Assembly: GCF_963675165.1 (NCBI RefSeq)
Contig: NC_087387.1
Span: forward strand, 1,849,501-1,913,500
DNA length: 64,000 nt
Source of the DNA: Halichondria panicea
Lineage: Eukaryota > Porifera > Demospongiae > Suberitida > Halichondriidae
Reading direction: 5' to 3'
A program made the translations under genes and the position numbers. Under the pieces are notes generated by a model, which saw only the letters and a list, made by a program, of their open reading frames with translations, had not been told where the DNA came from and did no database searches. Numbering within the stretch: position 1 is the stretch's first letter; every line of letters starts with the position of its first letter. Below, piece after piece: positions 1 to 29,300 of this stretch.

Positions 1-552
1 TTGAGGTGGGGAAGGTATGCATGACGCAGTAGTGGCTGTACATAAACTATAGCCTCAAAGCATTACAAGTTAGCTGCCACTCGAGACCATAGTGGAATTT
101 TAGTACCAAAGTATGTGAAAATCTTAATATTCCACGAGAAGCCTACACATTGTAGTGACGTAGCAGAGGCCCAATGTCATCTCCAGTGGCAGTTGTATAC
201 CGTGCTCTACCGAGATTACGCCCACGTCCGAAATTACGCCCACCCCCACTTTTGAGTGAAAGTTCCTGCATAGGCGAGAATACGCCCACCAGGAAGTGAT
301 ACATTTGTCAGTGCAGTTTATTGTGTAAGCTGGTTAGCTCTGAATATAGCGCTAGATTACTCAGAGACCGAGACAAGAACAATCTTTTCTAAATCTCTGT
401 TGAAGAGCATCGAGGTGCCTAATGGTGCTTAATCGGTCAGATTTTCTGCATGACCAATCAAAATTCACACTGGATCATACTTGCAAGTATTATTAGCTAG
501 GAACCTCTAATATAGTGCGAGCAAGGTAGATTTTGTTACTGAGTGCGTGTGC
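1..552. other. non-coding stretch, repeat debris
   Basis: No supportable exon is seen. Around 205-290 the motif ATTACGCCCAC or a close variant recurs several times, probably debris of an inverted-repeat element. From about 460 the sequence resembles 9485-9540 (shared CACACTGGATCATAC), so the repeat that carries the hammerhead ribozyme begins upstream of the ribozyme core. Confidence 0.4.
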
Positions 553-615
553 AGTCCACTGATGAGTCCCGGCACAATAAACATTAGGGACGAAAAGGTC
601 TAGACCTTCTGGGCT
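553..615 (+). ncRNA. hammerhead ribozyme, apparently intact
   Basis: All parts of a hammerhead fold are present in order. The core CTGATGA lies at 559-565. Stem II is GTCCC (566-570) with GGGAC (587-591), closing a 16-nt loop. GAAA follows at 592-595. Stem III is AGGT (596-599) with ACCT (604-607) around a CTAG loop. The A595-U608 pair and C609 form the expected cleavage site. Stem I is AGTCCA (553-558) with TGGGCT (610-615), six pairs including one G-U. Stem I is open-ended, as in the type I hammerheads known from Penelope-like elements and metazoan retrozymes. No flanking reverse transcriptase was found, so its host element is unknown. A degenerate sister copy lies at 9542. Confidence 0.8.
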
Positions 616-1430
616 ATACCAATGATGGATGATCGACATGATCAATCTCCGTTCTGTAAGTGTATGGCTTTTTGTCACAGCCTTTTCTGCAGCTCAAGCA
701 CACCTGTCCAGTAAATGTTTCTCCATAGCAATGCCTTCTCATGGATCTGACCAATCAGGTTGCGTAACACCAGGTAGAGGTAGCAGGAGTATGGCTGCCC
801 AGTTTTCCCAGATTGAGAGCGACAAATGTCGAGAGAGAAGACTTATAAGAGAGAGTGCGTCAATGTGTTCTACATGTACGTATGGTAAGTACTTACTGTA
901 AGTACAAAACTAAACTTTACATGCTCATCTACATGTATGTTCAGATAATTTTACTCCCTCACTGTAAAAATTTAGTCTACAGTAAGTACAAAACTATGTC
1001 CAGAACAGTGCAAGCTAGGATAATTAACATGCCCTATTAACATGCCGATTTACCTTAGGTTTTTGTTTCTCACATACATTTCACTTGGTCCATTTGCCTA
1101 TTCGTTCTGCAGGTGATGTACAGTTTGGATTCATTGAGAATGACGCTATTTTGATGTGAGGAACTGAACTGGCAGTATTTAAACAGTTACAGTCAAGAGA
1201 TGTGAGTCGTGGTGGTGATGTGTATTCTGATCTAAATAGCAGCTGTTGTATATGCCCCCCCCCCCCCCGCTCCATTAGACTATAACTTTCACTTTCAGCA
1301 TTAACACACACACACAAACGGACTACCGTATACCTCGCTTGCGCATGCGCACCGAGAGCATAATTATTCTCGGCCACAGCAATTATGTCTGCATGCAGTC
1401 ACATGGTATTCCTCTGATCTGTTCCTATAG
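616..1430. other. non-coding, contains a dispersed repeat
   Basis: Nothing gene-like is seen. About 676-850 is similar to about 3085-3225: both have TTTTTnTCACAGC near the start, CATGGATCTGA/CATGGATCTAA in the middle and an ATTGAGAnCGACA motif near the end. A C homopolymer sits near 1255-1270. The stretch 1323-1365 matches the terminal motif of the repeat at 20072-20945 (CGCTTGCGCATGCGCACCGAG). Confidence 0.4.
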
Positions 1431-1524
1431 GACCATAGAGGCCTCTCTTCCAATCGAACGCTACCAAGGTCACACACAGGAGGTGTGCAGGCTCAGATGG
1501 TCACCTGACGGTCAGCTCCTATGA
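1431..1524 (+). pseudogene. relic exon of a Cdc20/Fzr-type WD40 protein
   Basis: After a plausible acceptor (CCTATAG at 1424-1430) an open stretch encodes GHTQEVCRLRWSPDGQLL and then stops at TGA (1522-1524). The GHxQEVCxLxWSPD pattern is the signature WD40 blade of Cdc20/Fizzy and Fzr/Cdh1, activators of the anaphase-promoting complex. No neighbouring blade was found upstream or downstream, and the frame ends where the family would continue with LASGGND. It is therefore read as an orphan or transposed exon fragment. It could be one exon of a gene whose other exons lie left of the window, but the in-frame stop argues against that. Confidence 0.55.
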
Positions 1525-1776
1525 TGTTTTCAGAGTACGAAGCTTGCACGTACATGTACGTGTACTTTAGATCGAGTCATCCAATGCAAATGTTCCTACA
1601 CAAAGATGCCTCTCAATCAGCAAATAAGCAAATAAAGCCTCTCTATAGAAAACCCGTTTTCAGGTGCACCTGCACAGCATGTATATCTCCCACTCACTTT
1701 TGGTCGCATCATTTATAATAGGGTCACAGGCCAATGTTACGTGCTCAATTAGACACTAACGTACTTTTTGTTAAAC

Positions 1777-2303
1777 CATGCATAGATACAGGAAGAGAGG
1801 GATTGGCAACAAAAGCGCCTCGAATAGCCATCCGTGTTTCCCTGCGGTTTAATTGAGGCCGCCTACTTTCAACGTTGGGAAAAATGGCCAGACACAAAAT
1901 AAGAGACAAACGATTGTTTTACTGTCAGTATAAGCATTTTGCTGCTTAACTTTCAGTTCAATGCAGCTAGTGCTTTAGGCCATATATGCTACACAGTACA
2001 CTACTTAGTTAGGCAGCTCTAGCTATATTATAGTAGCAGGAGGTACATAGTGTCGCATGTACCTCTAGCTACTTCACAACAATCGAAATTATGTTTTTGT
2101 CATCTCTAAATGATGCCTACAAGCAAGGGGCATCGAATAGAAGTGTTTTGGGGGCTTGGAAAGGTTCGTAAAAGTTGTTCTACCGCGTTGGGGAGGGAAA
2201 CACGGATGGCTTGTCAAGCTCTGTATTGATTTCATGTAATTTTATATGTGGCTTATGGGCGCACGTGATCCGTTGCCAATCCCTCTCTTCCTGTATCTAT
2301 GGT
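1777..2303. repeat. nested inverted-repeat element
   Basis: Two nested inverted-repeat pairs are visible. The outer pair contains ATAGATACAGGAAGAGAGGG (near 1783) and CCCTCTCTTCCTGTATCTAT (ending near 2300). The inner pair is CCATCCGTGTTTCCC (from 1828) and GGGAAACACGGATGG (to 2209). The inner part is the same family, in opposite orientation, as 27867-28705, sharing the motif around TTAGTTAGGCAG and GAGACAAACGATTG. No transposase is present, so it is non-autonomous. Confidence 0.6.
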
Positions 2304-2311
2304 TAAACAAG

Positions 2312-2480
2312 CTGTTGCATACGCTGTGCCCCCCCCCCCCCTGTGTTCCATTAGACTATTATAATAACGTACTTTTTGTATGTTGTATACGCTGTGCCCC
2401 CCCCCCCGTGTTTCGTTAGACTTTTTATGTGTTGTATATGCTCTGCCCCCCCTGTGTTCCATTATAGTGTTATAATAATG
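2312..2480. repeat. short tandem array with poly-C tracts
   Basis: About three copies of a roughly 65-bp unit, each reading TATACGCTGTGCC or close, a run of C, TGTGTTCCATTAGACT, then an AT-rich spacer. A related single unit lies near 1245-1285. Poly-C lengths in such runs are prone to assembly error. Confidence 0.6.
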
Positions 2481-2640
2481 TATGATCGACCCTTCAGAGA
2501 TAGGACCTCCGTCTCACATAGTGTTTATTGTCTAGTGGGTGGGTCTTTACCGGCTGTTTTGGCTCATTGTGACTGTTACTTATCCATTCTAAAGTCTTTA
2601 CCCACTAATCGAGGCACGCATGTCGTATACCTCCTCTGCT

Positions 2641-2780
2641 CTTGAACTGTGACATACATTCGAGAATAATGGTATAACAAGTGCAAAAAACATTTTTGGG
2701 AGAGTAGGGTTGGAGGAGCATGTGCTCTTGAACTGTAACATACATTCGAGAATAATAGGTATAACAAGTGCAAAAAACAA
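2641..2780. repeat. tandem duplication of about 79 bp
   Basis: The segment starting CTTGAACTGTGACATACATT near 2640 recurs starting near 2728 (CTTGAACTGTAACATACATT), both running through ATTCGAGAATAAT and ending AACAAGTGCAAAAAAC. No gene is associated. Confidence 0.6.
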
Positions 2781-2790
2781 AAATGGGGAA

Positions 2791-4270
2791 GAGTTATTGG
2801 ACAGAGTTCAGATAACAATAGAGATCACAGAAAGACGCACAAACATGAGTGAAATAAGCTTCATCATAGGCAGATAATTATACAATGTGACTTATATGCA
2901 GGAAGCGGCTTGTTTGCCAAGGTGGTTTGAACACCAATACTCGCTGGGGAAATCTGCACTTTATTGTGTCCACATCATCATGCTATATGTAGGTGGTTCC
3001 ACCCAATTTCATAGCTCCGTGGAGGGTCACAGCGATCCCTACTCAACTGGTAGTCAGTGACCGCCTACGACGTTAGTATTTAGCTTTTTTTCACAGCAAT
3101 ATTTTCTTTTTTGCAGCTCTAGTGAGTTTCTCTATAGCAACACTTTCATGGATCTAATTACCAACCAGGAATTTGGCTGCCCGATTCACTCACATTGAGA
3201 ACGACAGAGACAAGACTCGATCAGAGTAAGTCAACGTGTTATACGGTACCCTCTTCGATGTGGGTCATTTGTTTCTCACGTTTAATTCTTAAGTTTCACC
3301 CCAAAAGCACTCTATATGTGTAACTATACACGACAATGTATAGTTACGTCCCAAAGTTAGCTACTTGCTTGCACCATAATCATCAAGGTGAGATGTATTG
3401 GCCTACAGTATTGCCCAGCAGTGACAGTTATTGTAGCCTTTAAGGAATGGATGCATGTAAAGTACTTAGTACGTACAATTAATCCTTAATTCGAACCGTT
3501 GCCAATATCATAAACAGCATTAGTCATTAATCTTTGTATGCATGTACATTATTATTGTCTTTGTGCAAAAGCACAAAGATATACTGTAACATGCAGCCTA
3601 TAAGCATGTGTCATATACACACACACAGCACATACACCACTCCAGGTATGGCAAAGACCAACTCGTTTTTTTGGGATGATTGTACATATTGCTAGGTTGT
3701 ACAAAGACGTTATCTCCTCCGCAGTGGGAGCCTAGGGTTTGGGATCACCAAGCACCTCCAGTGACTGGCTGTAAAAGGTGAGGGTTACAAAGTAATGTGT
3801 TAAACCAGCATGTATGTAAATTTATAATGCAATACTAGCCATGCGTACGTACATTTTATCTCCAAATTATCCCTCTGTCATAATCCATGTACATGCATGT
3901 ACCTAAAGTGTCTGTTTCGTTATATACGTTATATACGGTGTCCATTACAAATGGTTGTGATCCTCCAACTGTGTACCTCTAACTCTAAACCATTGGTTAT
4001 CACCATCCCCTCATGTCCTTCTACCCACGCATTTTTTCTGCATGTGTCTTACATGTAGCTAGCCAGACCAAGAAACCTGGTTCAGAGCTAGCCTCTTTAT
4101 ATATACATGTCGTCGTGTGTGCTAACAGTAGTACTGCTTTTAGTGTTATGTATTGCATCTCTTGTCCTTGCAGAGAACAAATTAGCTTGTGAAAGCGTGA
4201 CCCTATATACCCATTTGCAGATGAAGCCAATTTATTGTGTAGGGGGTATTTACCGTATTTTTTGTCTCAG
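2791..4270. other. non-coding stretch without recognised gene
   Basis: Apart from the repeat match at 3085-3225 to 676-850, no coding signal or named element could be supported. Frames are short and broken and no conserved motif was recognised. Confidence 0.4.
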
Positions 4271-4399
4271 TGTGTTGTGATTCGTGTCCCAACGACAGTG
4301 CTGGCTGCTTGACAGAAGTGATTGACCAATGGATGAAGGGTTGGTCTAGACGATCAATTAACATGGAGTGAGCTGGCCAATCTCGTCTCAGTAACATAG
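4271..4399 (+). pseudogene. relic exon resembling a death-domain C-terminal half
   Basis: After an acceptor-like CTCAG the first frame gives NDSAGCLTEVIDQWMKGW. A one-base shift then gives TWSELANLVSVT followed by a stop. The order 'CLTEVIxxWxKG ... TWxxLxxxV' is typical of helices 4 and 5 of invertebrate death domains. The need to change frame and the early stop suggest a dead copy. The death-domain exons at 14352 and 27098 are clearly different sequences, so this is not a recent copy of them. Assignment rests on a short motif only. Confidence 0.45.
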
Positions 4400-5231
4400 G
4401 AGAGGAGCAAGTACATGTAGCAAAGGAACGTGTGACCAGCTACGAGTCTGGTGAGTATACAGTGATAATAATTGTGTTAGGTTGTACAATCAACCCTTTA
4501 TCAGAGCTACGTAGGACTCGTGTGTCGCTTAATGTTTATTGTCTAGTGGGTCTTTACTGGCTCAGTGTGACTGCTGCTTTTACCCAAGTGCTCTAAAGTA
4601 TTACCCACTCTGAGTAGAGAGGATGTGTTTATTGGTTGACTGATGCTTCCATTTACAGCCCCTTTGTATACTTTATTGTTTCTTGAGGTGGAGAATGGTA
4701 TGGCAAAAGCTTGTCAATTGCTGTACCATCAGGAAGCAGCAGATAGCTAGATTGTTTGTTGCTGAAGCTACTACATGTTTGGCCCGAGGGTTGTTGATAG
4801 ATTTCAATTCACTGGAGATGTGTCGCTGCTTATAAAGCCAGCCCAAGGTCTAGATGATCTCACGATGAATTGAAATTATTTGTGAAAAGCCGACTACCTA
4901 AAATTCAGATCCAATTGCTTCAGAAGTTCAGAGATCTAAAGTGCTGCCACATTATGCTGTCTACTTAAATGCCTAGGATTCACTCAAAGAAGGCTAAACA
5001 CATCAATACATGCTCTAAAAATAGATGTAGGTCTTGCACAACCTTTACAATTTGAAACTATGAGCATCCAGCTCTGACCATTACTATATGTACACATACC
5101 TGAGGTCAATTAGTGGTAGTTTCTTTTTATTTCAAGTGAGGTGAAAAGGTTGTACTTGAAAAGCTTTGCAGGTTATACTGCAAAAGCACTGCAACCACAA
5201 TGTAGTAAATACAGTTGGCTTCTGTTATAAT
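4400..5231. other. non-coding, nothing recognised
   Basis: No exon, RNA gene or clear element was identified. The segment 4541-4615 resembles 2525-2600 (GTGTTTATTGTCTAGTGGGT and flanks), so part of it is a dispersed repeat. Confidence 0.4.
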
Positions 5232-6250
5232 GTCAGCAAGCCAACAAAATAATTTGGAATTGCATAATTATAGCTATTGCCAGTGGCTGCCTCTATGCCC
5301 CAAGTCATAGCTGTTGCCTGCAATTCATATAGGTAAAGTTTCACAAAATGAAAAGCAGCAGTAGCAGCATTAGTCCTTGATTCATTGTCTGTGTGAAATG
5401 TGAATTAATCAAAACCAGGAGGCCTTTATTAAGAGAACAAGCTGAATCTTGTCTTAGCCACATGATATCTTGTATACCAATTAAGGGTATGAAGAGAAGC
5501 ATAATTATGTCCTTGCTAGTACCACATAACAAACTAGTGCTGCAAGCTGAATCTTGCCTTTTAGCAGGCCACAGATTCATTGTCTGTCAACAAGGTGACA
5601 TGACTTGACAGCCTCAAGAATTCATCCAGTGGTAGTAGTATGGTGTATCACACTGGGCAGACAATGAAATCAACACCCCTATCTGACCATCTACCAAGGC
5701 AACAAGGCTCACTTGGAATCAACACCTCTATCTGACCATCTACAGCAAGGCAACAAGCTGAACAAGCTGAAGCTTGCCCAGATTGCCACCTAACCACACC
5801 TGACTGAGTGGCTCCACAGTTCCACTACAATTAGTGGTTTTCCAAACCTTGCAAGGCTATGCACAATGTAGTGTATGTAGTCCACCCACACATCACAAAA
5901 CTCAAAGTGAAGTAAAAAAATACAGACTACTGCTGACTTTCCACACAACTCAGTACATTTACTACTCTACTTTCACAGCATTCAATTCCTTCTATATATC
6001 ATTTATGCTTGATTGATGCTCAAGGTCAACAAGCTGCTGAGCCTATAATAGTGTGGATAGTAAATACAGGCCCTCAGCTCCAATACATACAAGTTTTAGC
6101 TCCCATCATTTTGCCAAAATGAACCGAGCAACAAGTTAGCTGAGCACATTCAGACAAAATGTGAGGAAAGTTGATGTACCTACACCTGGAAAATTTAATT
6201 ATAATTACTTGGGAATGAGCTATTTGAACTTGGGGGTTTTAAATAATAGT

Positions 6251-6379
6251 TAGACACTGTTTTGTCATGTCCATGTGATTTAGAAGCCCTTAACCACTTT
6301 AGTACCCTGCTATGCTCAGGATACTAAATCAGCCTTTGGGCTTCTAAATCCCCATAGACCACCTCCAAAACAGTGTCTA
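6251..6379. mobile_element. foldback (hairpin) MITE of about 129 bp
   Basis: The ends TAGACACTGTTTT and AAAACAGTGTCTA are perfect inverted repeats. The next segments GATTTAGAAGCCC and GGGCTTCTAAATC also pair, giving one long imperfect hairpin. A target duplication could not be decided. Confidence 0.6.
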
Positions 6380-6467
6380 TCTAGACACTAGATCTACATG
6401 GGAAGTACTACTACACTACATCACAAGCCCAAATTTTACAGTTAAAATTTTAGTGTGCATTCATTTA

Positions 6468-7078
6468 CAGGGTTTTGCAGAATTCTTGCAACAGGGCTAA
6501 ACAGACACAGCAATGACTTCCATATATGGAAGTCACCTGCTGACTTATAATAATATTATTATGCAATGGTTATCCTGAAATGTTGATGAGACAGGAGCTG
6601 ACAAAAGAAATTGCCAGAGGAGATTTGGTTACAAGACCTTCTGTCTTCACGCTTATCAATATCAGCCAATACCACTGTTTGGAGGGTGTTTCGTTTATCA
6701 ACCTTATGAATGCTTACAACCTTATGAGCTGACGCTCTCTGGACATCTTTCAATTCAAATAACTATACACATACCAGGGTGTCATACAGGATTTTGAATT
6801 AGAGGGGATTTTAAAAAGTCACCAGAACATTTAAAAAAAGGTCAACAGTTATTTAAATACCCTGCCGGCTATGGACACTCAGTCTTACGACTGAGTACGG
6901 AGGGGGGGGAGGGGGTTGGAGCCAGAGGGGGATAATCATGTATCCCTGTATGCTGCATATACAATACATGTACACAAAATACATGTACACAAAATATTAT
7001 AGTCAGCAGTTGACTTCCATATATGGAAGTCATTGCAGTGTCTGTTTAGCCCTGTTGCAAGGATTTTACAAAACCCTG
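6468..7078. mobile_element. 611-bp TIR element with TA target duplication
   Basis: The ends are long inverted repeats of roughly 80 bp: the left runs CAGGGTTTTGCAGAATTCTT, through GCAACAGGGCTAAACAGACA, to a palindromic CTTCCATATATGGAAG. The right arm mirrors this. TA dinucleotides flank both ends (6466-6467 and 7079-7080), which fits a Tc1/mariner-type or other TA-targeting non-autonomous element. The interior has a G-rich run near 6900 but no transposase. Confidence 0.65.
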
Positions 7079-7492
7079 TAGGTTGGACTTATCTGGTTTG
7101 TGGATACAATATGTAAGCAAATCAGTAGCTACACCTATATGTTATGTTCTGGACCCCAATTAATTGTCTATATTTTGCACATCAGGAGTGCATGAATTCC
7201 AGGCAAGCCAACAAAATAATTTTGTAATTGCATAATTATAGCTAATGCCAGTGGCTGCCTCTATAGCTGTTGCCTGCAATTCAAGTTTCACAAAATGAAA
7301 AGCAGCAGTAGCAGCATTAGTCCTTGATTCATTGTCTGTGTGAATTAATCAAAACCAGGAGGCCTTGATCAAGAGAACAAGCTGAATCTTGCCTTAGCCA
7401 CATATTCATCTGATATCTTGTATACCAAGGGTATGAAGCATAATTATGTCCTTGCTAGTACCACATAACAAACTAGTGCTGCAAGCTGAATC

Positions 7493-8167
7493 TTGCCTTA
7501 TTGTGGCATGACTTGTGGCATGAGTTGAGCAGGCCACAGATTCATTGTCTGTCCACAAGGTGGCTCATTAGCTTATCTATTGACAGCCTCAAGAATTCTT
7601 GTATGGTGTATCACACAACACCTCTATCTGACCATCTACCATGCAAGGCAACACAGTTTGTTGGATGTGGTAGATGTCAGATAGAGGTGTTGATTCATTG
7701 TCTGCCCAGTGTGAATCCAGGCAAGATCCAGCTTGTTGCCAGCTTGTTGCCATGTGGTAGATGTCAGATAGAGTGTGGGGAGCTAATGAGCACCTTGTGG
7801 CTAAGGCAAGATTCAGCAGCACCTCTCTTGCCTTATTGTGGCATGACTTGTGGCATGAGTTGAGCAGGCCACAGATTCATTGTCTGTCCACAAGGTGGCT
7901 CATTAGCTTATCTATTGACAGCCTCAAGAATTCATCTAGTGCTTGTATGGTGTATCACACAACACCTCTATCTGACCATCTACCATGCAAGGCAACACAG
8001 TTTGTTGGATGTGGTAGATGTCAGATAGAGGTGTTGATTCATTGTCTGCCCAGTGTGAATCCAGGCAAGATCCAGCTTGTTGCCAGCTTATTGCCATGTG
8101 GTAGATGTCAGATAGAGTGTGGGGAGCTAATGAGCACCTTGTGGCTAAGGTAAGATTCAGCAGCACC
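7493..8167. repeat. two-copy tandem array, about 335-345 bp unit
   Basis: The unit starting TTGTGGCATGACTTGTGGCA at 7501 recurs from 7836, nearly identical apart from an 11-bp insertion and single changes. Each unit contains an inner inverted pair, ACACCTCTATCTGACCATC and its near-complement GATGTCAGATAGAGGTGT. Open frames of 120-130 codons run through it on both strands but show only repeat-derived low-information sequence. Confidence 0.7.
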
Positions 8168-9076
8168 TCTCAAACCTGCCTGGTTATGATTAATTCCAGA
8201 CAATGAATGTAACATTAAAAGGAGCAGTGGTGTGCTGCACAGAACCATAGATTGAAAAGGAAGGGGATTGGAAGTGACCAGGCCTCCCTGTGTAAATGGT
8301 TGAAACACTCCACGTTATGATTTCGCGCTCGCGATTATTTTTGTTTTGACCGTACTCTGGTTGTATTTCAACTGTTTCTAGCTCTCCTATCCGCTGGGAG
8401 GTTACTCTAGAGAAGTAAGTTTACACCACTGACAAGCTCTAACTTGTCTAAGTCCGCTGTCTTTACTCTGTTTTTAGTTTTTGTTGAGTATAGTTGAATT
8501 ACTCCATGTCAACTTTTCTCTTTCCCTGCTGCGAAGCCTAAACAGCAAAAGACATTGCTTGACTTGGTTATTATGTATCTATATAAGTGCTATATAGAAT
8601 GGTTTCATGCCATGGATAAGCTTTACTGTTCATAAACGTTTGCAGTATAGTCTATACTTTTAGACACACCACAGGCCTTGACCTCTCACGACTTCATAGT
8701 AAGGGCTATTCCTTCTTTTATAACATTTATTTGTTTAGTGATAGTGGTTGCGTTGCTTAGTCGACCTTTTAGAGCTATATTTTCTTTACTTTAGAATATT
8801 CAACATTAAAAGTGATCAATTTCACCATTTCTGTGTACAGCACATTGTATGGCAGCCAAGACCTTACACCACATACACCACATACATGTTACCATTGACA
8901 TTCACCGTTTCACATACAGTTTGCCCAATATCCCTCACTCTAGATCTCCACTTGTTCCCCTACTATCCCCCAACTCCTCCCCACTTTACTCATGTGATGT
9001 GATAGACCTCCTTTAGAGCTACTGAATGTATGTGTTAATGACATACAGTACACATCAACCCCACCCCCTCACACAG
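8168..9076. other. non-coding, nothing recognised
   Basis: No gene or element could be supported. The C/T- and A-rich sequence at 8860-9070 contains several open but low-information frames just upstream of a possible two-exon fragment. Confidence 0.35.
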
Positions 9077-9458
9077 ATCCACCCCTCTCTTGTCTCACGC
9101 ACGACTGACCAGAGACGAACCTCTCGGATTGACGCCTCTTTACACTCTTCATCATTCATGGATTACTTCGCCCACCCACCAGTGGTCCCTATATTGACTA
9201 TAGTTACGCTAGAGAAGCTGGCTGTTGTTACAACGACTGCTACACGTACATGTAACAGTGTGTTTCTGCACTCAAGAATTTCAACGGACAAGTAAGTGTT
9301 AGAGCGACAGTCACATTGCTGGATTATTGTGTTCATTGAACATTACTAACCCTCCTCTCAGGTACATGTACCATGTGGCTGAGGGTGTGGGCTCTACTCT
9401 TAGGAGACCTGGGGAGGGTGGTCACACAGACCAGTGGGCACTTGTCAAAAGGTCAAGG
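9077..9458 (+). CDS. possible two-exon coding fragment, unknown
   Basis: Two open segments join with proper splice sites and matching phase. The first is 9077-9291, after acceptor CACACAG and before donor GTAAGT. The second is 9362-9458, after CTCTCAG and before GTAATT. Joined they give about 104 residues, including MDYFAHPPVV and HVAEGVGSTLRRPGEGG. No family is recognised, and no start or stop exon was found. It lies about 80 bp upstream of the second hammerhead, so it could belong to the element carrying it. It may be chance, because the region is repeat-rich. Confidence 0.25.
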
Positions 9459-9541
9459 GTAATTACGATTAATCAGAGGAACCACACTGGATCATACGTA
9501 CGTGCTCGTAATGATAGACTGCAAACTAGATTTAGTTGTGC

Positions 9542-9604
9542 AGTCCACTGATGACTCCCGGCACAATAAACATAGGGGAAGAAAAGGTCTAGACCTTCTG
9601 GGCC
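9542..9604 (+). ncRNA. degenerate hammerhead ribozyme copy
   Basis: Same layout as the copy at 553-615: CTGATGA (9548-9554), the GGCACAATAAACAT loop, GAAA (9581-9584), the AGGT/ACCT stem III hairpin and the TTC cleavage triplet (9596-9598). Stem II has decayed: the first base after CTGATGA is C rather than G, an extra base precedes GAAA, and only UCCC/GGGA (9556-9559 with 9576-9579) can pair. The outermost pair of stem I is lost too (A against C). Cleavage is therefore probably weak or absent. Confidence 0.65.
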
Positions 9605-10913
9605 ACATGCGCCATCTACAGGGGATTTTGCTATAAAACCAATTTGCACATGGCGTGATGCACATTATTTTTTCACTAACTGTGCATATCTTATTGCTAG
9701 AATGTTTTGTGAGCCATATGTGAACTTTGTGAGTGTTGATCAATTCCCAAAATAAAATCCCAAAACCTCAATTAGTATTATTAGTGTCAATTACACACAA
9801 TCCGTAGGTCAATTTTTCTGCTGATTTGGCTTGCAAAATAATTATTCTAGTAATACGAATAACTATTTTGCGGAATTCATGTGTACGTCTGTTATAGCTT
9901 ACTTTATTTTCTGGGCTAGTTAGATCCTGTCGGTGTGTATTGTGTGCATGCATGCTATAGCTCTATACCCCAATACACTTACTAACACACAGCTTCACTC
10001 TCTCAGCCCCCCCCTGCACACGCACACACACACACACACAGCTAACACTTGGCCTGAGGTGCACGCTCGAACTCGTGCATAGTTATTGCTCACTACCCCC
10101 TGCGTCTTGTTCATTATTCAGCTCGGACTTCAAAGGTGAGTACATTGAGAAAGTTCAAGTTTTTGGGTGAGAATTATGCTGGTATAAAGGGGTAACTATA
10201 TACAGGCTTTGGAAACACATGTCTGTACGGAAACATTAGTTATGGGTGATTCCTCAGACTACATGGCTATAGTGTAAACAGAATCTCTGTTATGTGCCCA
10301 TTATAAAGTTTGTGAGGTTGCTTGTGTGATGGCAATGATGTGGTCTATGTTGTGCTCGTGGTTTACATGAGGGCTGTTATTTTGAGAATAAAATACAGGT
10401 CAAAATTTTCTTGAACATAACTACTTTGGAGTGCAACATAACATGTACAATGTAGCTGTCAAGAAGGGCTTCACTAAACCCGGGTTTGTAATTGCACACC
10501 TTGCACGTAGGGGTTTAATCGAGTGACCCCTGTGGCTAGCCGTCAGTCGTGTCTAAGGTGGCCGGGTGCCCTCACCAGGAGCTGGGGGGGGGGGGTATAG
10601 CTCTAAGAATCGCGATCATTATGTATAAACATTGTACGTATTTTAAGCAGTACATTAGCTATAAGCCTGTGTGTGTAGGGGGGAAGGTTGTGTATAGTAT
10701 ATTAACTATGAGCTTGTGTGTGTGTGTGTGAATGAGGGGGTTGTACATGCATGTCATTTGAGAAGATGAGATGAGGAGGTGAACAATGTTTTAAAATAAT
10801 TATTTTGATTACAGTTTTTGTTGACACTCTATGAGTAAAAGTACTGCAGTCGCGTATGAGCACAGACCACAAACCACATATAGTTCATTAGGTGAGTGGG
10901 CTAAATAAACAGG
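9605..10913. other. non-coding, simple repeats only
   Basis: Short CA and TG runs (10020-10040 and 10718-10731), a poly-G run near 10586 and AT-rich sequence. No exon or element was recognised. Confidence 0.4.
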
Positions 10914-11862
10914 GTTTACATGAGGTTTGGTTTGATGGCGTCTTTCATTAGAACAGCCAGTGCTCACCGGTTGCTACTTTGCAAGGTTATTAGTGTGAAA
11001 GGCTCACGTATAGTACTGGCCATAGAGATATCAAACAGGGTCTGAGGGTTATAGGGGGAATGGTGATTGGTGCTCAAGACAAATCACCAATAAGTGACCA
11101 CTATATGTGGTATACAATTTTTCTTGCACTGCACAACTTTTTAATAGTGAGAACAAAATAATAATGATCTCATTTCATCATTCAGGATGATAAATACGAT
11201 GTATAAATGACTTTTTGTTAACAATTAATCATAGCTTGGTTGACTCAGAGGGTTGGCTACCTGGAACCAGGCTAAAGTGGTACTTGAGGTATCCTGTATT
11301 GATAAATGGTGGTACTGAAAGACAAACTGTGGGTTGTGTGTATAAACTTGTGGTATGCTGGTAAGATGATATCCACGCACCTCTCTGCAGTCTTGCTTTT
11401 GACCGATTGTGATCTTACTTTGCAAGGTTATTAGTGTGAAAGGCTCCCATATAGTACTGGCCATAGAGATATCAAACAGGGTATGAGGGTTTAAATTAGG
11501 GGGAGGAATGGTGATTGGTGCTCAAGACATCCATCACCAATTAAGTTAAGGCTATAGCAAGTATGTTCACAGTGTATATAGAGCACACTTTTTCTTGCAC
11601 TGCACACTGTTTTTAAAGTGGTACTAGGGTATCCTGTATTGAAAATGGTGGGTACTGAAAGACAAACTGTGGGTTGTGTGTAGGGGTATGCTAGTAAGAT
11701 GATATCCACTTACCTCTCTGCTGTGACCTTTCTCAGCTTGCTCTGACTGATTGTGATCTTACAGAGATAGCGATCGTTGTTATCCATGCATGAGCCTGTT
11801 CCAGGTGATGGTGGAGGGGTCAATGTCGACAGCACTGCTCAGATCACCAGAGTTCCTGCATT
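10914..11862 (-). pseudogene. broken duplicate of MTHFD1 exons 13 and 12
   Basis: Minus-strand copies of exons of the intact MTHFD1 gene. 10914-11044 matches exon 13 (25236-25443), including GGTTTGATGGCGTCTTTCAT, with an internal loss of roughly 75 bp. 11417-11481 repeats the 5' part of exon 13 (TATCAAACAGGGT). 11376-11413 is a scrap of exon 12. 11712-11862 is a longer copy of exon 12 (26072-26231), keeping GATAGCGATCGTTG and GATGGTGGAGGGGTCAATGT with several small losses. Indels break the frame. Intron pieces are also conserved, so this is a DNA-level duplication, not a processed pseudogene. Confidence 0.8.
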
Positions 11863-13103
11863 TAAGGGAATTCTACAACACATACCATAATAATTTAACG
11901 TATCTTGCACCAGTTCATTTATATGCCGGTTCTCTAAAACTGCGTGTGTGGGAAATGCGTGCAATTTCAATGGTACTTGTGTTGAGTTTGACCTTCATAT
12001 CGTTGTCATAACTGTTACTTCACTGAAATTCAACCATTGGATTTCTTGCTAAAACACGCTTCTTCAGCTAAAAGTTGGCATTTTCCGTATATAGTTGACC
12101 ACATAACTTTCGGGGCCGAACTCAACACAAATACCTTAAGGTGACATATTTTCACATGTTTGACATATTTTCACATATTGACATATTTGATATAATTAGG
12201 TAGATTTGTTTGCTGTTTAACTCATTTTGCTGGTATTAAATTCTTGCTCAAGTTGTGAAATTAATGTTATTCATACTCGCAAGTGGTTTTAGATATCTGC
12301 GAGTACAGAGATTTTACTCTCATTCACAGAAATAGCAGAAATTAATACTCGAAAATATAATAATACCTTTTTTTTATTTTGGCTACTGCTACTACATTGC
12401 ATGTGGATAGGAGGCAACCTGTCACATGCAGAGATATGAACCACTGTCTTGTTTTGGTGCATTTTTGTGGGACAATTTTCAGATAACTTTAGGCGGGTTG
12501 TAATTGAACAGTATACGTATCCACCTACTCACAAAATACGATTCCACCCCCTTTTATATCAACTATATATAGTCCCAAAGAACACATGCGTTCCCAATCC
12601 CTTTCCTTTACTATCTATGGGTATACTTTAAAGTGCAGCAAATGATCTCTTGACTAAATCATGAAAATCGTAAGTAGGATTGTACCACCCAGACTCAATT
12701 GAAAACATTGGCGCACGTGATGCATTTCCAATCCCTTTCCTATGGGCAGGGTTTAATCTATAGGATTAAATGTTTGGGGGGTAAGATTTGGCGCGCGTAA
12801 ATACACCGCAAATGTTCCCTTTTTACATGCTAGTGCATCACAGTAGATGTATTTACATATTGCACATCACAGACAGTACTAGTGTGATGAATGTCATTGT
12901 TCTACAACATTTGGGGGGTGGAGGTTCACTCCTGCCCCCCATTAGAGGGTAGGTATACTACTATACTATAAAGTGGTACCTGCATGGGGTATCCTGTATT
13001 GATAATGGTGGGGTACTGAAACGGCCAGACAAACTGTGGGTTGTACGTACATGTGTGGATAAGATATGAACATAATTAATATGACTCATGTATATATAGT
13101 TAC
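11863..13103. other. non-coding, repeats and displaced caspase upstream DNA
   Basis: No gene is seen. The segment 12380-12585 (CACCCCCTTTTATATCAACT and flanks) is similar to the DNA just upstream of the second caspase gene (26880-27030). The motif CAATCCCTTTCC occurs twice (12596 and 12730) next to inverted repeats related to the 1777-2303 family. Confidence 0.5.
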
Positions 13104-17300: not shown

Positions 17301-19235
17301 ATGAATTAAGTGAGGGGGGGTGAGGGGGTTCTCCCTGGAAAGAAAAAATATTTTAGCCTTCTCACAATGCAATTTAAATGCCTTAAATACCATTTATCGT
17401 TAAGACTAGTGAAGAGGGAAGTGTACCATCGGCCAATTTCCGTGCAATTAACACAAATGATCTAGCAGAAGAGCACATGGTCAGCCCTTGTAACGACCGA
17501 TCAATAATTGGGGTGTGGCTCAATTTATCCAAGCATGCGCAGAAGAGTTAGCAAACACATGCTAAAAATTGCTAGTCTGTGATTAGCCTCTGTTGTGTAT
17601 AGCTATCTAGCTACATGTTTAAACAGCTAGTAAAGGGGACACAGTTCAAGTTCTCTAGCTCTAGTCTTAAGTCTAACCTAAGAAATGATATGATATTGAT
17701 GATTAAAATTGCAAATTTATAAACAAGAAAGACTCGTACACAGTTTAAAGAGTATACTTACATGCATGTATAGTGCTGTGAACGTCCTAGCAAATTAGTA
17801 ATACCGTATATGCTCGATCAGAGGCCGCTCTTGTATAAAGGCCGCACTCAAATAGTAGCCTCCCTTGCTAGTAAAATGAAACATTTAGTAGCCGCTCTCA
17901 AATAGTAGCCTCAGTAAAATTTAACTCTAGGATTTCTGCACGTGGCAGCCAAAAAAATTAATACTAGCAGCTAGCTACATGTACGTAGCTACAAGTAGCA
18001 GCTTGTTAGTGCTTCACAAAGACTTTCTCATGACAGTGTTCAAGTTTATGCAGGTGAACACAACTTTTGATGACAAACTAAATTATCTGGAGCTTAATAA
18101 ATGCCGCTCTTGAACAGTGGCCTCTCTTGAATTGTAGCCTCCTCTTCCATATCAGCAAAATGAAACATTTAATTAGCCGCGGCTCCTGATCAAGCATATA
18201 CGGTATGTCCAACCAATATGTTGCTTGGTCTGGCAAATAGCCAAGCAAAAATTAATTTTAAAAGTTATTTTGTACACGGGGGGGGGGAGCTAGGGATAGA
18301 ACCCTGGTGGAATGGGCTTATTTTTGAAAAACAGTAGATTTGTCTCAAATTTTCGTCCACTAATTGAGAAACAATGGGCTACATGCCAGCGCTTGAAATT
18401 CAGTTATACAATGAATGTAATATTTTAATAGTCAATATACAACGAAGGGTAATACAACTTTTTACTGTCTGAAACAAATTATACACATGCAGATATGAGT
18501 CCACAACCATATGCAATGAAAAATCGACAAGCTCTGATCATCAACATCATCCAGTACAATGAAGAAATGAAAACGAGACTCGGCTCAAACAAAGACAAAG
18601 ATGCACTGGAAGAAACGTTAAAAATGCTGGGATACACTGTGCATATTGAAACAGACCTAAAACGCGATGAGATAATTCCAAAAGTTCTCGAACATGCAGA
18701 AAAAGACAAACACTGCGACAGTTTTATCTGCTGCATCTTGGCACACGGTAATCAGGGTGTGGTATATGGGTCCGATGGAGAGAAATTAGAGATAAAAGAC
18801 ATTTCAAAGGCACTTAACGAGGTAACACAATTGAGAGGAAACCCGAAAATATTTTTCTTTCAAGCTTGTCAGGGAAGTGATATTCCAATAGCTCTGGCCG
18901 AGGTTGATGATTGGTCCAGTACAAGCAGTGCTAAGCCTATAGAAATAGATGCAGCCATTCCGAAACTGCCTCGAGATAGCGATTTCTTCTACGGCTGTGC
19001 ATCGTCTTTTGAAACTGCCTCCATGCGAGACACTAACGAAGGCTCACTGTACATACAGGCCCTTTGCCGAGTCTTGAAGAGCAAGTACCAAGAAGAAGAT
19101 CTTCTAACCATGGTTACCAGGGCCCACTATCTAGTTGCTGAGGATGAACGACAACTTAAAAAAGGGAAAAAATATGTCTACTACCAACAGCAACCACAGC
19201 TAGTATCCACCTTAAGGAAGCAAGTGCACTTTTAG
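14352..19235 (+). CDS. death-domain caspase 1 (cysteine protease)
   Basis: Predicted initiator/adaptor-type caspase. Exon 1 (14352-14613) is a death domain starting MSSKLTITDLQWIATELL, with a probable 5'UTR intron ending TATACAG just before the ATG. Small linker exons follow as two near-identical sets: 15148-15183, 15238-15270, 15326-15382, and 16939-16974, 17027-17059, 17105-17161. The last exon (18493-19235) is a full caspase domain: p20 with ILAHGNQG (catalytic His) and QACQG (catalytic Cys), an inter-subunit linker with candidate cleavage Asp (IEIDAAIP), and p10 with GSLYIQALC. All junctions are phase 1, giving 418 aa with both linker sets or 376 with one. The p10 S-W-R substrate motif reads S-M-R. 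A broken caspase exon lies between the sets. Death domains suggest recruitment to a signalling complex; the partner is unknown. Confidence 0.85.
16315..16490 (+). pseudogene. truncated caspase exon between the linker sets
   Basis: After the conserved acceptor (CATGCAG) the sequence encodes [17 protein letters not shown] and GSDKDQDALVETL like the intact exon. It then loses about 18 bp after the ETL codons and reads through a degenerate segment into a stop. Both catalytic residues lie downstream of the break and are absent. If it were spliced in, translation would end prematurely; if skipped, the frame is kept. Confidence 0.8.
17814..18203. mobile_element. MITE with CCGTATATGC ends
   Basis: Inverted ends CCGTATATGCTCGATCAG and CTGATCAAGCATATACGG are flanked by TA on both sides (17812-17813, 18204-18205). 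GGCCGC/GCGGCC-type motifs recur inside. It is absent from the first copy of the 1.8 kb duplication, so it inserted after the duplication. Related ends occur at 25637, 42693 and 49209. Confidence 0.7.
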
Positions 19236-21479: not shown

Positions 21480-22288
21480 CGTACATGTATATTGAACTAC
21501 TCTGTCTGTGCACTTGGTTATGCTGACAATATAGCCCTTCTGGCCCCCTCACCATCTGCCATGCGTATCTTAGTGAAGTATTTGCCTCTGAATTCGATAT
21601 AACTTTTAATGCCAGCAAAACTCAACTTATTTGTTTCAGCAATCGTCCGATGACACTACCTAACGGAGTATTCAGGTTCAATGGAGTTGCTCTTCAATTT
21701 ACAGACATAGTGACCCACCTTGGCCACACTCTTCATCGCAAGTTGGATGACGGAGTTGATATTGCACAAGTAACTTCCGCTATGTGCAGGAAAGCTAACT
21801 ACCTGCTCCATACATTTAGTGGGTGTGATATGAGAGTGAAAACTAAGCTAATTGTGACCCACTGCCTCTCACTATATGGTTGTGTTTTGTGGAGAATTGA
21901 CAGTAAGAAAATTCGTACTCTTGAAACTGCTTTTAACAATATTTTAAGAAAAATTTGGAGATTGCCTCGTCAATGTCACACAAGAATTCTCCACTGTGTT
22001 GCTGGAGTTCAGAGTTTGTTTAATAGAATACCAGATCTTTTTTCTAACTTCATTTCACGTGCTTTAGCATCGAAATCCACCCTCATTAGATCGGTTTTCT
22101 CGTGGGCGTCTAGCCATGCATTCACAGCAGTCGGGGCTAACAACCTGATCAAACGGAATTTTATAAAAGTTTATAGCAGTGACGACATGGTTTGTGCGGA
22201 CTTTGTTCGGGATGTCAGGCTTGGCCGCATTTCATTCAACTCGCGTGAAGATACATCAATGATAATTAACTCTATCTGCTGCGATTGA
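21480..22288 (+). mobile_element. dead non-LTR retrotransposon fragment (reverse transcriptase)
   Basis: The frame at 21480-21575 reads LGYADNIALLAPSPSAMRIL, matching the catalytic YADD block of LINE reverse transcriptases with D changed to N. A frameshift near 21575-21600 follows, then an open stretch to 22288 (ASKTQLICFSN, HLGHTL, KTKLIVTHCLSLYGC, WRLPRQCHTRIL) typical of the thumb and C-terminal region. The upstream fingers and the endonuclease domain are missing. The frameshift and altered catalytic motif make it inactive. Its clade is not decided here. Confidence 0.75.
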
Positions 22289-26300: not shown

Positions 26301-29300
26301 CTTGAATACGTACACAAGTTCATTTACAAGTTCTCTTAATTATTATGTCATAAAAATGTGTGAGGGTATAATTATAGCTAGAAATATGCAATTGTTATGT
26401 TATCATCTTGGGTATACATGCACATGCTAGTCTCGCGGGCCATACTCAAGTATCAGATTGTGGAGTATGGGACTATACATATGCTGGCTGCTACAGAGTA
26501 CATGCATAATTGTAATTTGCTAGCAGCCTTGACATCAAACTCAAAGTGCACAAAATGTATAATTATAATTATTGGCAAAATAATTATAGTGCAATGTACT
26601 ATTATACACCGTATAACAGGAAAATTTGCTGGGTATTATATTTGGTGAATGAACCATTTGAACTGACTTGGTGTTTCTTAATTTGGCGTCTCAGGCGTGG
26701 CTACTACAGCAATGACGTTGTATCCACCGGAAAACTTTAATTTTAGGTTTTAAATTTGGTGGTCTTCTGTAAAATTTGCCAAATCACCAAATTAAAACAG
26801 CCACCAAATATTTTCAGTTATACGGTTATACCCAATTTAGGGCAGACACATATAGTGGACAGCAGCTGTCACAACACAGAGATAATAAATAAACCATAGT
26901 GTGCATATTGTGGGCGGGGATCATTTATTCAGACAAATAGGCAAGTTGTGTGTGTAATATTGAACAGTGTGTTTATCCACCCACTAACAACGATTCCACC
27001 CACTTTTATATCAACTAGCCACAAAGAACACTGCCAACAAAGTGAGTGATCTAGCACATTAAGCAATAATTAACAGTATAACTATAAACATACACAGATG
27101 TCCAGCAAACTGACCATTGATGATCTCCATGAGATAACAACAGAGCTGCTACCAGCTAGAAACGAATGGCAGGAAATAGGAACGGCTCTAGGTCTTAAAG
27201 CATCCGACATACAAGGAATAAACAGCACAAAACCGCAACGAGCACTTTCAACAGTGTTGACTACTGCCCTCCAAAGGAGATCAGATCTCACCTGGGGAAA
27301 ACTTATTGACGTCTTAAGAGAACCATTAGTATCACAAGATGCTCTAGCAAACAAACTAGCAAAAAAATATGGTGGGTTGTTTTTTTAATTCCCCGTGCCA
27401 GCTGACACAATGTTACTTTGAAATTCTATAAAATGGCTACCTTCTCTCGTAGGAGCTTCAACGATGCCAGACAGTCGAACACTCCCAAAAAGTATAACAT
27501 TATGAACAGTTAGTGCACACCATTCATACTATCCTATACATTACAGACTTAAGCTCTAAAGAAGACTCCATTGATGGTGTACCACCACCAGACGAAGACC
27601 CTGGTAAGTGCATGCAATTAAGCCTTCTGTGCCAATCCATACTACGTATATCTGTATGGGCAATACACGATATACTATACACACTCTACCGAGATTACAC
27701 CTACTCAAATTGAACGCTACGCAAAAGCAATGGGTGCATGGAATATGAAGAGTTCTATCTTAATGGTTTGGAATTAAGCATAGATATAACTATATAGAGG
27801 ATATGGATTGAAAACAAAAGTCAAAATGTCTACTTTTACACAGGGTGTGTGGCTTAATTCTGAAACCATCCGTGTTGCCGGCCAAACCCCGGGAACCACT
27901 ATTATATTTTGAAGGCCTTATGCAGAACTTTTTAAGCCTCGCACCCCTTGATGGTGGGTATATTATGTGGAATTATCAATCAAATTCTCGATTGTTGGGA
28001 AATAAGCTACAGGTACACAGCGTTTTGTTCACACTTCTGAGATACTTCTGTATCAGAGGAAGTCCGACATGCGTGCACGAATCACTACAAGTTCAGTGCA
28101 TTGATGTCATTGCGGTGTCATGTGATAATGCCTGGCCACAATGCACTGAACTTGTAGTGATTCGTGCACGCATGTCGGACCTCCTCTGCTTCTGTATATA
28201 TACCATACTGGAAACCACTCCCCTTCTCTTGAAGAGAAAGGGACTGGAAAGCTGCAGTGTTGAGAGTTGTCCCTTTGTAATGCAATTGCACGTAATGCGT
28301 AAAGTATGGGTGATATTGCTTCAGCCTCGAGAACAGACCATCAGTGACGTACTTATACTCGAGGCCGATATATTTTGTGCCAGCGCGTGGGCGGTGGCAC
28401 ATGACTATTTGTGACGTTTGCATTCTTGTGGGAGTGTGACATTCTTCATGCAGCACTGAGACACTCTCAACATGACAGCTTACCAGTCTCTTTCTCCCCA
28501 AGAGAATAAGGGACTAGTAAGCTGCCAGTATATAAGTATTATAGTATAGCTAAGACTGCCTAACTAAGTAGTGTACTAGCTGTATGACTTCAACAATGGA
28601 AAAAAAGTGCACGTTCAGCAGCAGGATTGTTGTACTGACAGTAAGCCAATCGTTTGTCTCCTAGCCTGAATATATAGGCCTCGAAAAACCGGGGCAACAC
28701 GGATGACAATTAGAGACCGAATCCATTCCCACTCCATCTTTTCTTAATCTACGAATGAAGCAAGGGAAATTTTTCTTTTAGTTTCTCAGAATCAATTTAA
28801 ATGCCTTGAATACCCCCATTAAATAAATTTAGTGTTTTAAATTTTTAGACTAGTGAAGGGGGAAGCTGAATTGTTTGGGGGGAAAGCTTCCTCCCTGGTG
28901 GAATAGGCTTATTTTCGAAAAACGGTCGATTGGTCGAATTTTCACCACCTATAATTGGGTTACATATCAGTGCTTGAAATTCGCATATAATTATAGTCAA
29001 TATACAACAATGGTAATCGAAGTGTATTTACATGCAGATAGTCCACAACTATATTCAATGAAGAATCGACAAGCTCTGATCATCAACATCGTCAAGCACC
29101 CAACGAAAGAGAGACACGGCTCAGACAAAGACAAAGATGCACTGGAAGAAACGTTAAAAATGCTGGGATACACTGTGCATATTGAAACAGACCTAAAACG
29201 CGATGAGATAATTCCAAAAGTTCTCGAACATGCAGAAAAAGACAAACACTGCGACAGTTTTATCTGCTGCATCTTGGCACACGGTAATCAGGGTGTGGTA

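Follow-up and report, generated by a model that had tools for sequence, protein, structure and literature searches.

Which kind of element houses the hammerhead ribozyme at positions 553–615 of this sponge locus, and by what route did it spread? Animal hammerheads are described mainly from retrozymes of ~170–400 nt (PMC7229834), and those of minimal form from Penelope elements and Terminons (PMC7761336, PMC6431247), as far as the available parts of these papers go. The initial annotation reported an intact hammerhead with no reverse transcriptase in its flanks, compared its small stem III with that of Penelope-type elements and metazoan retrozymes, and suggested either a retrozyme-like family or a lone locus. 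We analyzed the whole stretch of 64,000 nucleotides, called the window here, together with matching places in the same genome.

The ribozyme at 553–615

553–615, + strand: complete class A copy of a type I hammerhead ribozyme (direct reading, RF00163 alignment and three-stem descriptor)

Direct reading of the sequence identifies each part of the motif. Stem I is formed by AGTCCA (553–558) and TGGGCT (610–615) with six pairs, one of them G-U, followed by the core block CTGATGA (559–565), stem II of five pairs (GTCCC 566–570 with GGGAC 587–591, loop of 16 nt), the core block GAAA (592–595) and stem III (AAGGT 595–599 with ACCTT 604–608) around the loop CTAG. The cleavage base is C609, with the cut predicted after it. 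The site thus contains the elements required of a hammerhead core, namely CTGANGA, GAAA and U16.1-H17 with three stems and an open stem I. The core blocks, the stem I and stem II pairs and the cleavage base reported initially were all recovered on re-reading, as was the CTAG loop; the four pairs given for stem III are correct without A15.1-U16.1 and become five when that pair is counted.

The Rfam model Hammerhead_1 (RF00163), which the initial annotation had proposed to run, aligns with 553–615 end to end (E 0.021 in the 401 bases scanned, 400–800), but at 20.4 bits it stays under the curated gathering score of 34 bits; in the whole window, no Rfam family reached its gathering score. A strict three-stem descriptor (core plus stems of at least 5, 4 and 4 pairs), composed after the site had been seen, gave a single match on the two strands of the window, at 553–615. 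On first-order Markov sequence of the same composition it matched nothing in 9.6 Mb and once in 264 Mb, corresponding to a chance expectation of ~0.0002 per window, and the motif is therefore far beyond chance for 64 kb. The core alone is little proof, because a looser pattern (CTGANGA, 8–36 nt, GAAA) matches nine places in the window against a mean of 3.2 in shuffles.

Predicted folding is less distinctive for class A than for class C, the classes being defined below. The fold energy of the 71-nt RNA 548–618 is ordinary, with 33 of 200 shuffles equally good, and for the 63-nt class A RNA an alternative fold is predicted to be favoured by 2.2 kcal/mol (−18.0 versus −15.8 kcal/mol), whereas for the one class C sequence tested the hammerhead is the predicted minimum, at −19.5 kcal/mol, without constraint. 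Taken together, the sequence confirms a genuine, complete type I hammerhead motif, for which cleavage is predicted. The ribozyme itself is of an ordinary, known kind; its genomic home is unusual.

Copies and sequence classes

466–552, + strand: upstream module common to classes A, B and C, starting near CACACTGGATCATAC (from the A–B alignment)
9542–9604, + strand: class B hammerhead, the second copy in the window, its activity probably weak or lost as judged from its sequence (94% over 67 nt to 548–614)
9423–10001, + strand: class B unit, both bounds taken from comparison with locus L027, where it measures 625 nt

Window positions 540–625 matched at least 30 places, in 16 clusters on nine contigs, of the sponge's own genome (131 Mb, 39 contigs); six of the 30 matches, the window's own included, are identical over 86 nt. 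Since the genome searches scored the best candidates only, the copy counts are lower bounds, and because many ribozyme loci are segmental duplicates of each other, the counts overstate independence. Two ribozyme clusters on contig C2, at ~3.317 Mb and ~8.605 Mb, are apparently near-identical inverted duplicates, either real or an assembly artefact. The established picture is a dispersed family, as one of the two initial suggestions had it, and not the lone locus of the other.

An exact search with the 36-nt core gave 19 genomic matches, the window copy included (6 A, 11 C and 2 D), a pattern that misses class B and accepts two class D copies broken just outside it. With up to three mismatches it matched 22 places, against none for the reversed control pattern, and a degenerate 25-nt core pattern gave no match in viral contigs or in the other genome contigs searched. 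The genome-wide RF00163 search returned two places at E up to 10, neither of them a family member; it misses known copies, so that it provides no count, and it also gives matches in 11 of 14 control genomes. A hammerhead-like site at L036:490–547 (C9:2565689–2565746, + strand; 6-pair stem I, RF00163 26.3 bits at a genome-wide E of 0.019, gathering score 34) is unrelated: present in a single copy and of different sequence, it was rejected as a member.

The 30 places fall into four established classes, A (8), C (12), B (8) and D (2). Class A comprises the window copy at 553, L010–L014, L025 and L026, the last two having lost 9 nt including GAAA. Class C copies have a stem III of six pairs and a loop of 8 nt. 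Class B, in which the pair 10.1-11.1 is broken, comprises the window copy at 9542, L027–L032 and an incomplete second copy in L028, spaced at 144 nt and attached through a short repeated word. In the copy at 9542–9604, C and A replace the G and C of pair 10.1-11.1, and stem I has lost its last pair. The two class D copies (L033, L034) have the core broken on its 5′ side. Judged by reading, the copies that look intact number six in class A and 12 in class C, stem II of L022 having one mismatch. A minisatellite of ~80-nt units lies downstream of the class D copy at L034:7669–8793 and occurs also in L033.

The A–B alignment upstream of the ribozyme scored 20.9, whereas none of 300 shuffles exceeded 12.5, with 61 of 77 aligned bases equal across a 110-nt stretch containing many gaps. 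Within the class A upstream part, window 185–406 is a separate dispersed repeat with 26 further genomic matches at 69–97%, some of them short pieces; these 26 of 48 matches were set aside. In four of eight cases (C2 twice, C14 and C7), a class A copy elsewhere in the genome follows a class C copy on its downstream side with the same orientation.

Conservation of the ribozyme

Within class C, one of 69 ribozyme sites is variable compared with 16 of the 185 sites of the two flanks together (p 0.047; 10 of 12 copies, with L014 and L024 left out as duplicates), or p 0.063 and 0.092 when the 5′ and 3′ flanks are taken singly. Classes A and B agree at 92% in the ribozyme and at 79% of aligned bases upstream (p 0.055), and the A–C comparison gave p 0.051 against the 5′ flank and 0.41 against the 3′ flank. 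In an alignment of six rows, in which the copies are very alike, none of 17 pairs had changed on both sides; one alignment set was made without classes B and D. Damaged classes B and D and two damaged class A copies persist. These values are no more than suggestive of selection on the ribozyme.

Reverse transcriptase, tandem units and terminal repeats

The initial statement that the flanks lack reverse transcriptase held for the reading frames covered: no RVT family was found by Pfam, at E up to 0.01, in 291 ORFs, although such scans could miss short or broken fragments of the enzyme. The set combines 87 ORFs (≥50 aa) of window 1–12500, 124 of the 174 ORFs (≥75 aa) listed for seven loci, scanned from five of them, and 80 ORFs (≥105 aa) from twenty loci, L021 and L022 included and L014, L024 and L030 left out; these last 80 gave one weak Exo_endo_phos match (E 0.0097). 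Some 21 kb from the ribozyme, an ORF at window 21527–22288 resembles, by eye, the end of a LINE reverse transcriptase.

A Penelope element was rejected, as no reverse transcriptase was found in the ORFs scanned and a helix III of 5–6 pairs is wrong for it; the small stem III that had prompted the initial comparison does not fit the minimal helix described in the available parts of the literature. Retrozyme arrays of 150–450 bp repeats, for which a tandem-copy search had been suggested, are absent from the 30 places. Only one neighbouring pair is closer than 1.9 kb, the 144-nt pair of L028, and one of its members is partial; a retrozyme array was rejected, and with it the short-spaced tandem organization implied by the retrozyme-like label. 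We likewise rejected the window copies at 553 and 9542 as a pair of long terminal repeats: apart from the 67 nt of the ribozyme they have in common only a less similar stretch upstream and, downstream, a similarity that is marginal at best (score 13.3, the highest of 300 shuffles reaching 13.0).

Host exon fragments downstream of the ribozyme

661–879, + strand (the ribozyme's orientation): decayed host exon copy, aligned with L035 747–989 at 69% over 254 columns
1327–1521, + strand: WD40 exon fragment, probably of CDC20/Fizzy type (PF24807 E 2.8e-5, WD40 E 0.00027; neither passes its curated cut-off)

The exon-like character of the 3′ flank is established by its similarity to a locus elsewhere in the genome, L035. 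By eye, the match of 661–879 overruns the end of the preceding intron and the start of the next. The exon itself matched no Pfam family and no PDB chain; another ORF of L035 matched RhoGEF (PF00621, E 0.0058, below the cut-off) and four DBS chains (E 0.13), making a Dbl/DBS-type Rho exchange factor gene the probable identity of L035. The 23 matches of window 616–880 consist of 22 that adjoin a ribozyme copy, counting that of the window itself, and L035, in whose 3 kb ribozyme similarity was not found. As intron edges are apparently retained, a spliced RNA intermediate is disfavoured, and a flank that reads as a decayed host exon with its intron edges suggests that copying probably took place at the DNA level.

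The fragment at 1327–1521 matched 26 PDB sequences, the best being other WD40 proteins, with CDC20 and Fizzy-related chains lower. Four class C loci (L015, L016, L019 and L021) have open reading frames that extend across the ribozyme. The ribozyme loci carry genes with caspase, forkhead, T-box and SRCR domains, which mark the genome as that of an animal, and the neighbouring gene families vary by locus. A caspase-like gene occupies L009:4689–5705 (PF00656, E 4.9e-38), and two caspase-like ORFs were recognised by eye in the window at 18453–19235 and 28857–29762. The window further contains a 344-bp unit in two tandem copies matching at 96% (7491–8171) and a perfect 30-nt inverted repeat (1781–1810 and 2272–2301, 461 nt apart) that encloses a second inverted pair and is probably a small inverted-repeat element.

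Association with a Mutator-like transposase

Locus L023 contains an ORF matching the Mutator-like transposase family PF20700 (30.8 bits, cut-off 26.5), which lies 3–4 kb upstream of a class C copy on the opposite strand. We merged the 42 genome matches to its protein by hand into 21 loci, eight of which lie within 10 kb of a ribozyme copy compared with 0.08 expected, the partial ribozyme copy at C7:5289086 being left out of the test. After dropping two loci judged to be duplicated, 6 of 19 remained within 10 kb (p 6e-11), which establishes the association. The arrangement is the same in all eight, with the transposase upstream of the ribozyme and on the opposite strand; the C14 case rests on a 39-residue match (E 2.3e-5), and those at C11:5054559 and C2:4761923 on a 46–50% relative. 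In the control, counted by eye, RVT_1 occurred within 10 kb of a copy once (C8:3756895) among the best 150 of 616 candidates. Like the second copy at 9542–9604 and the captured host exons, this link was absent from the initial annotation.

At larger distances the association loosens. Thirteen transposase loci lie within 50 kb of a copy, three of them otherwise arranged, and eight of the 21 have no copy within that distance; conversely, only 10 of the 16 ribozyme clusters, counted by hand, have a transposase within 50 kb. None of the 42 matches lies near the window copy itself, which we take to be a derivative lacking a nearby transposase, in view of the class A copies described above that follow a class C copy in like orientation.

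The sequence between transposase and ribozyme (L023:3304–3896) gave 42 matches, with 40 of 60 candidates scored. Of these, 32 fall in a common repeat of 71 nt and were set aside; each of the remaining 10, among them the query and its duplicate, is located 0.7–4.2 kb upstream of a ribozyme copy on the same strand. For the downstream flank L020:2200–3200, 34 of 41 matches, short ones near query positions 557–668, were set aside together with two partial ones. Four of the five long matches, query included, are located 0.9–1.9 kb downstream of a class C copy, whereas the fifth (C11:5014029) and the two partial ones have no ribozyme copy beside them. In L038 a PHD-finger ORF follows ~2 kb beyond the transposase on the same strand as the latter, and other transposase families (DDE_Tnp_1_7 and DDE_3) occur singly in the loci.

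Mutator-like transposons have terminal inverted repeats and generate 9–11 bp duplications. Neither terminal inverted repeats nor target duplications bounding the ribozyme unit were found in the DNA analyzed, which stops short of the element ends, and there is no target duplication at L018 and L027, the two of the 30 places whose units were taken as bounded on both sides. A 120-bp inverted pair was rejected as the element ends, since it encloses the ribozyme at C8 and in its duplicate only.

Origin of the family and competing explanations

We favour, with a probability of about 0.58, the reading that the ribozyme at 553–615 belongs to a low-copy family that spread as DNA in large mosaic elements linked to a Mutator-like transposase. 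The fullest copies follow one order, with a transposase gene reading away, the family-specific upstream flank, the ribozyme and a captured host exon fragment, the last two in the same reading direction. Transcription of the rightward strand would yield an RNA predicted to be cut after base 609, just 5′ of the captured exon. Hammerhead cleavage leaves a 2′,3′-cyclic phosphate and a 5′-hydroxyl. The ribozyme may have derived from an older retroelement and then been carried along; cleavage, transcription and DNA-level spread are steps that we infer. Against this reading, repeat-rich islands could by themselves bring transposase and ribozyme together.

The ribozyme might do more than travel with such elements. 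As a working part of a DNA transposon it would trim transcripts, for instance separating element RNA from captured or neighbouring host exons, a role to which the fixed arrangement of the eight close pairs would be suited, as would an upstream flank found, one short common repeat apart, only beside ribozyme copies (10 of 10). The lower variability of the class C ribozyme than of both its flanks and the unconstrained folding of class C point the same way. The single-flank and between-class comparisons are marginal, however, damaged ribozymes persist in classes B and D and in two class A copies, and double-sided changes are absent from all 17 pairs, so that we regard this role as unlikely. That a Mutator-type transposon has the hammerhead as a standing part, cutting the rightward transcript next to captured host exons, is to us a doubtful, tentative proposition. 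Two direct ribozymes could alternatively flank a long interior and release an RNA of several kilobases, as in a retrozyme or an element mobilised by Penelope-like elements, and all eight neighbouring pairs spaced 1.9–12.5 kb are indeed direct, the window pair (9.0 kb) included; animal type I hammerheads, too, lie mostly in retrozymes in the available part of PMC7229834. Two of these eight pairs are duplicates of each other, though, and three of the four pairs 15–30 kb apart are inverted. The interiors seem to differ, L022 sharing little with the window interior, and one member of the window pair, the copy at 9542–9604, is damaged. With reverse transcriptase missing from the ORFs scanned, an exon flank with apparent intron edges and no 150–450 bp arrays, we consider this origin improbable.

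The exon flank could suggest a host gene element, in which the ribozyme would occupy the leader or an intron of a gene family that has been duplicated, like the intronic hammerheads of mammals: host exon pieces come next in the same orientation, and four loci have ORFs through the ribozyme. Yet the exon copies look broken and are only 69% alike to the apparent source gene, no ribozyme similarity was found in the 3 kb of that gene, and neighbouring gene families differ among loci, which leaves such a setting very improbable. Chance resemblance would accord with the score below the Rfam threshold and the competing class A fold, but the descriptor matched simulated sequence just once in 264 Mb and class C retains the three stems despite a different loop III, which leaves its likelihood negligible.

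Relation to known hammerhead systems and transposons

The ribozyme shares with RF00163 the core bases, three stems, open stem I and U-C cleavage site, and departs from it in its low score and 16-nt loop II. In the sources as available in part, animal hammerheads are tied to retroelements or to single host genes (PMC7229834, PMC7761336, PMC6155905, PMC8490949); judged by titles, the literature searched contained no report on hammerheads in Porifera or Amphimedon. The metazoan non-LTR retrozymes of Cervera and de la Pena 2020 (PMC7229834, available part) resemble the present family in having type I ribozymes with a real helix III in animal genomes and a unit without a long coding frame, whereas here about 30 places were found without short tandem arrays and with host exon fragments and a DNA transposase link. 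Penelope-like elements and Terminons (PMC6431247, PMC7761336, both in part) likewise carry type I ribozymes in animal mobile elements, large ones in the case of Terminons; their ribozymes are described there as minimal, lacking helix III or loop contacts, in contrast to the 5–6 pairs here, and no reverse transcriptase was found near our copies.

The closest parallel for a ribozyme in a DNA transposon is provided by the schistosome W elements and SMalpha (PMC8490949), which also place type I hammerheads in an animal genome, in four repeat families. According to the available part of that paper, these families (W25.2, W26.2, W27.2 and W36.2) consist of SINE-like or satellite repeats whose stem III is very short, unlike the present one, and are distinct from W16.2, a further family of the set whose similarity to the Mutator-like DNA transposon Curupira-1 is 81% over 317 bp; that part names no repeat family combining a hammerhead with Mutator-like similarity. 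The isolated amniote hammerheads (RECK and CTCL introns, Clec2 3′ UTR; PMC6155905, in part) are comparable as single, non-tandem type I ribozymes near host exons, but they reside in named genes, whereas here they occur in broken, duplicated mosaics.

With Mutator-like transposons (PF20700) the ribozyme loci have in common the transposase ORF, the PHD-finger ORF and captured host gene fragments, and differ in that ends and target duplications were not found around the ribozyme unit; the part of the literature surveyed gave no report of a hammerhead within such a transposon. If the hammerhead were a standing part, it would represent self-cleaving RNA in the service of a cut-and-paste element, not of a retroelement; if it only rides along, it would still illustrate DNA-level spread of a ribozyme together with host exons. 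Intact class A and C copies make its activity directly testable. Compared with the known systems, a low-copy, non-tandem family in the company of a DNA transposase, with no reverse transcriptase found nearby, represents a different genomic home for the hammerhead ribozyme.
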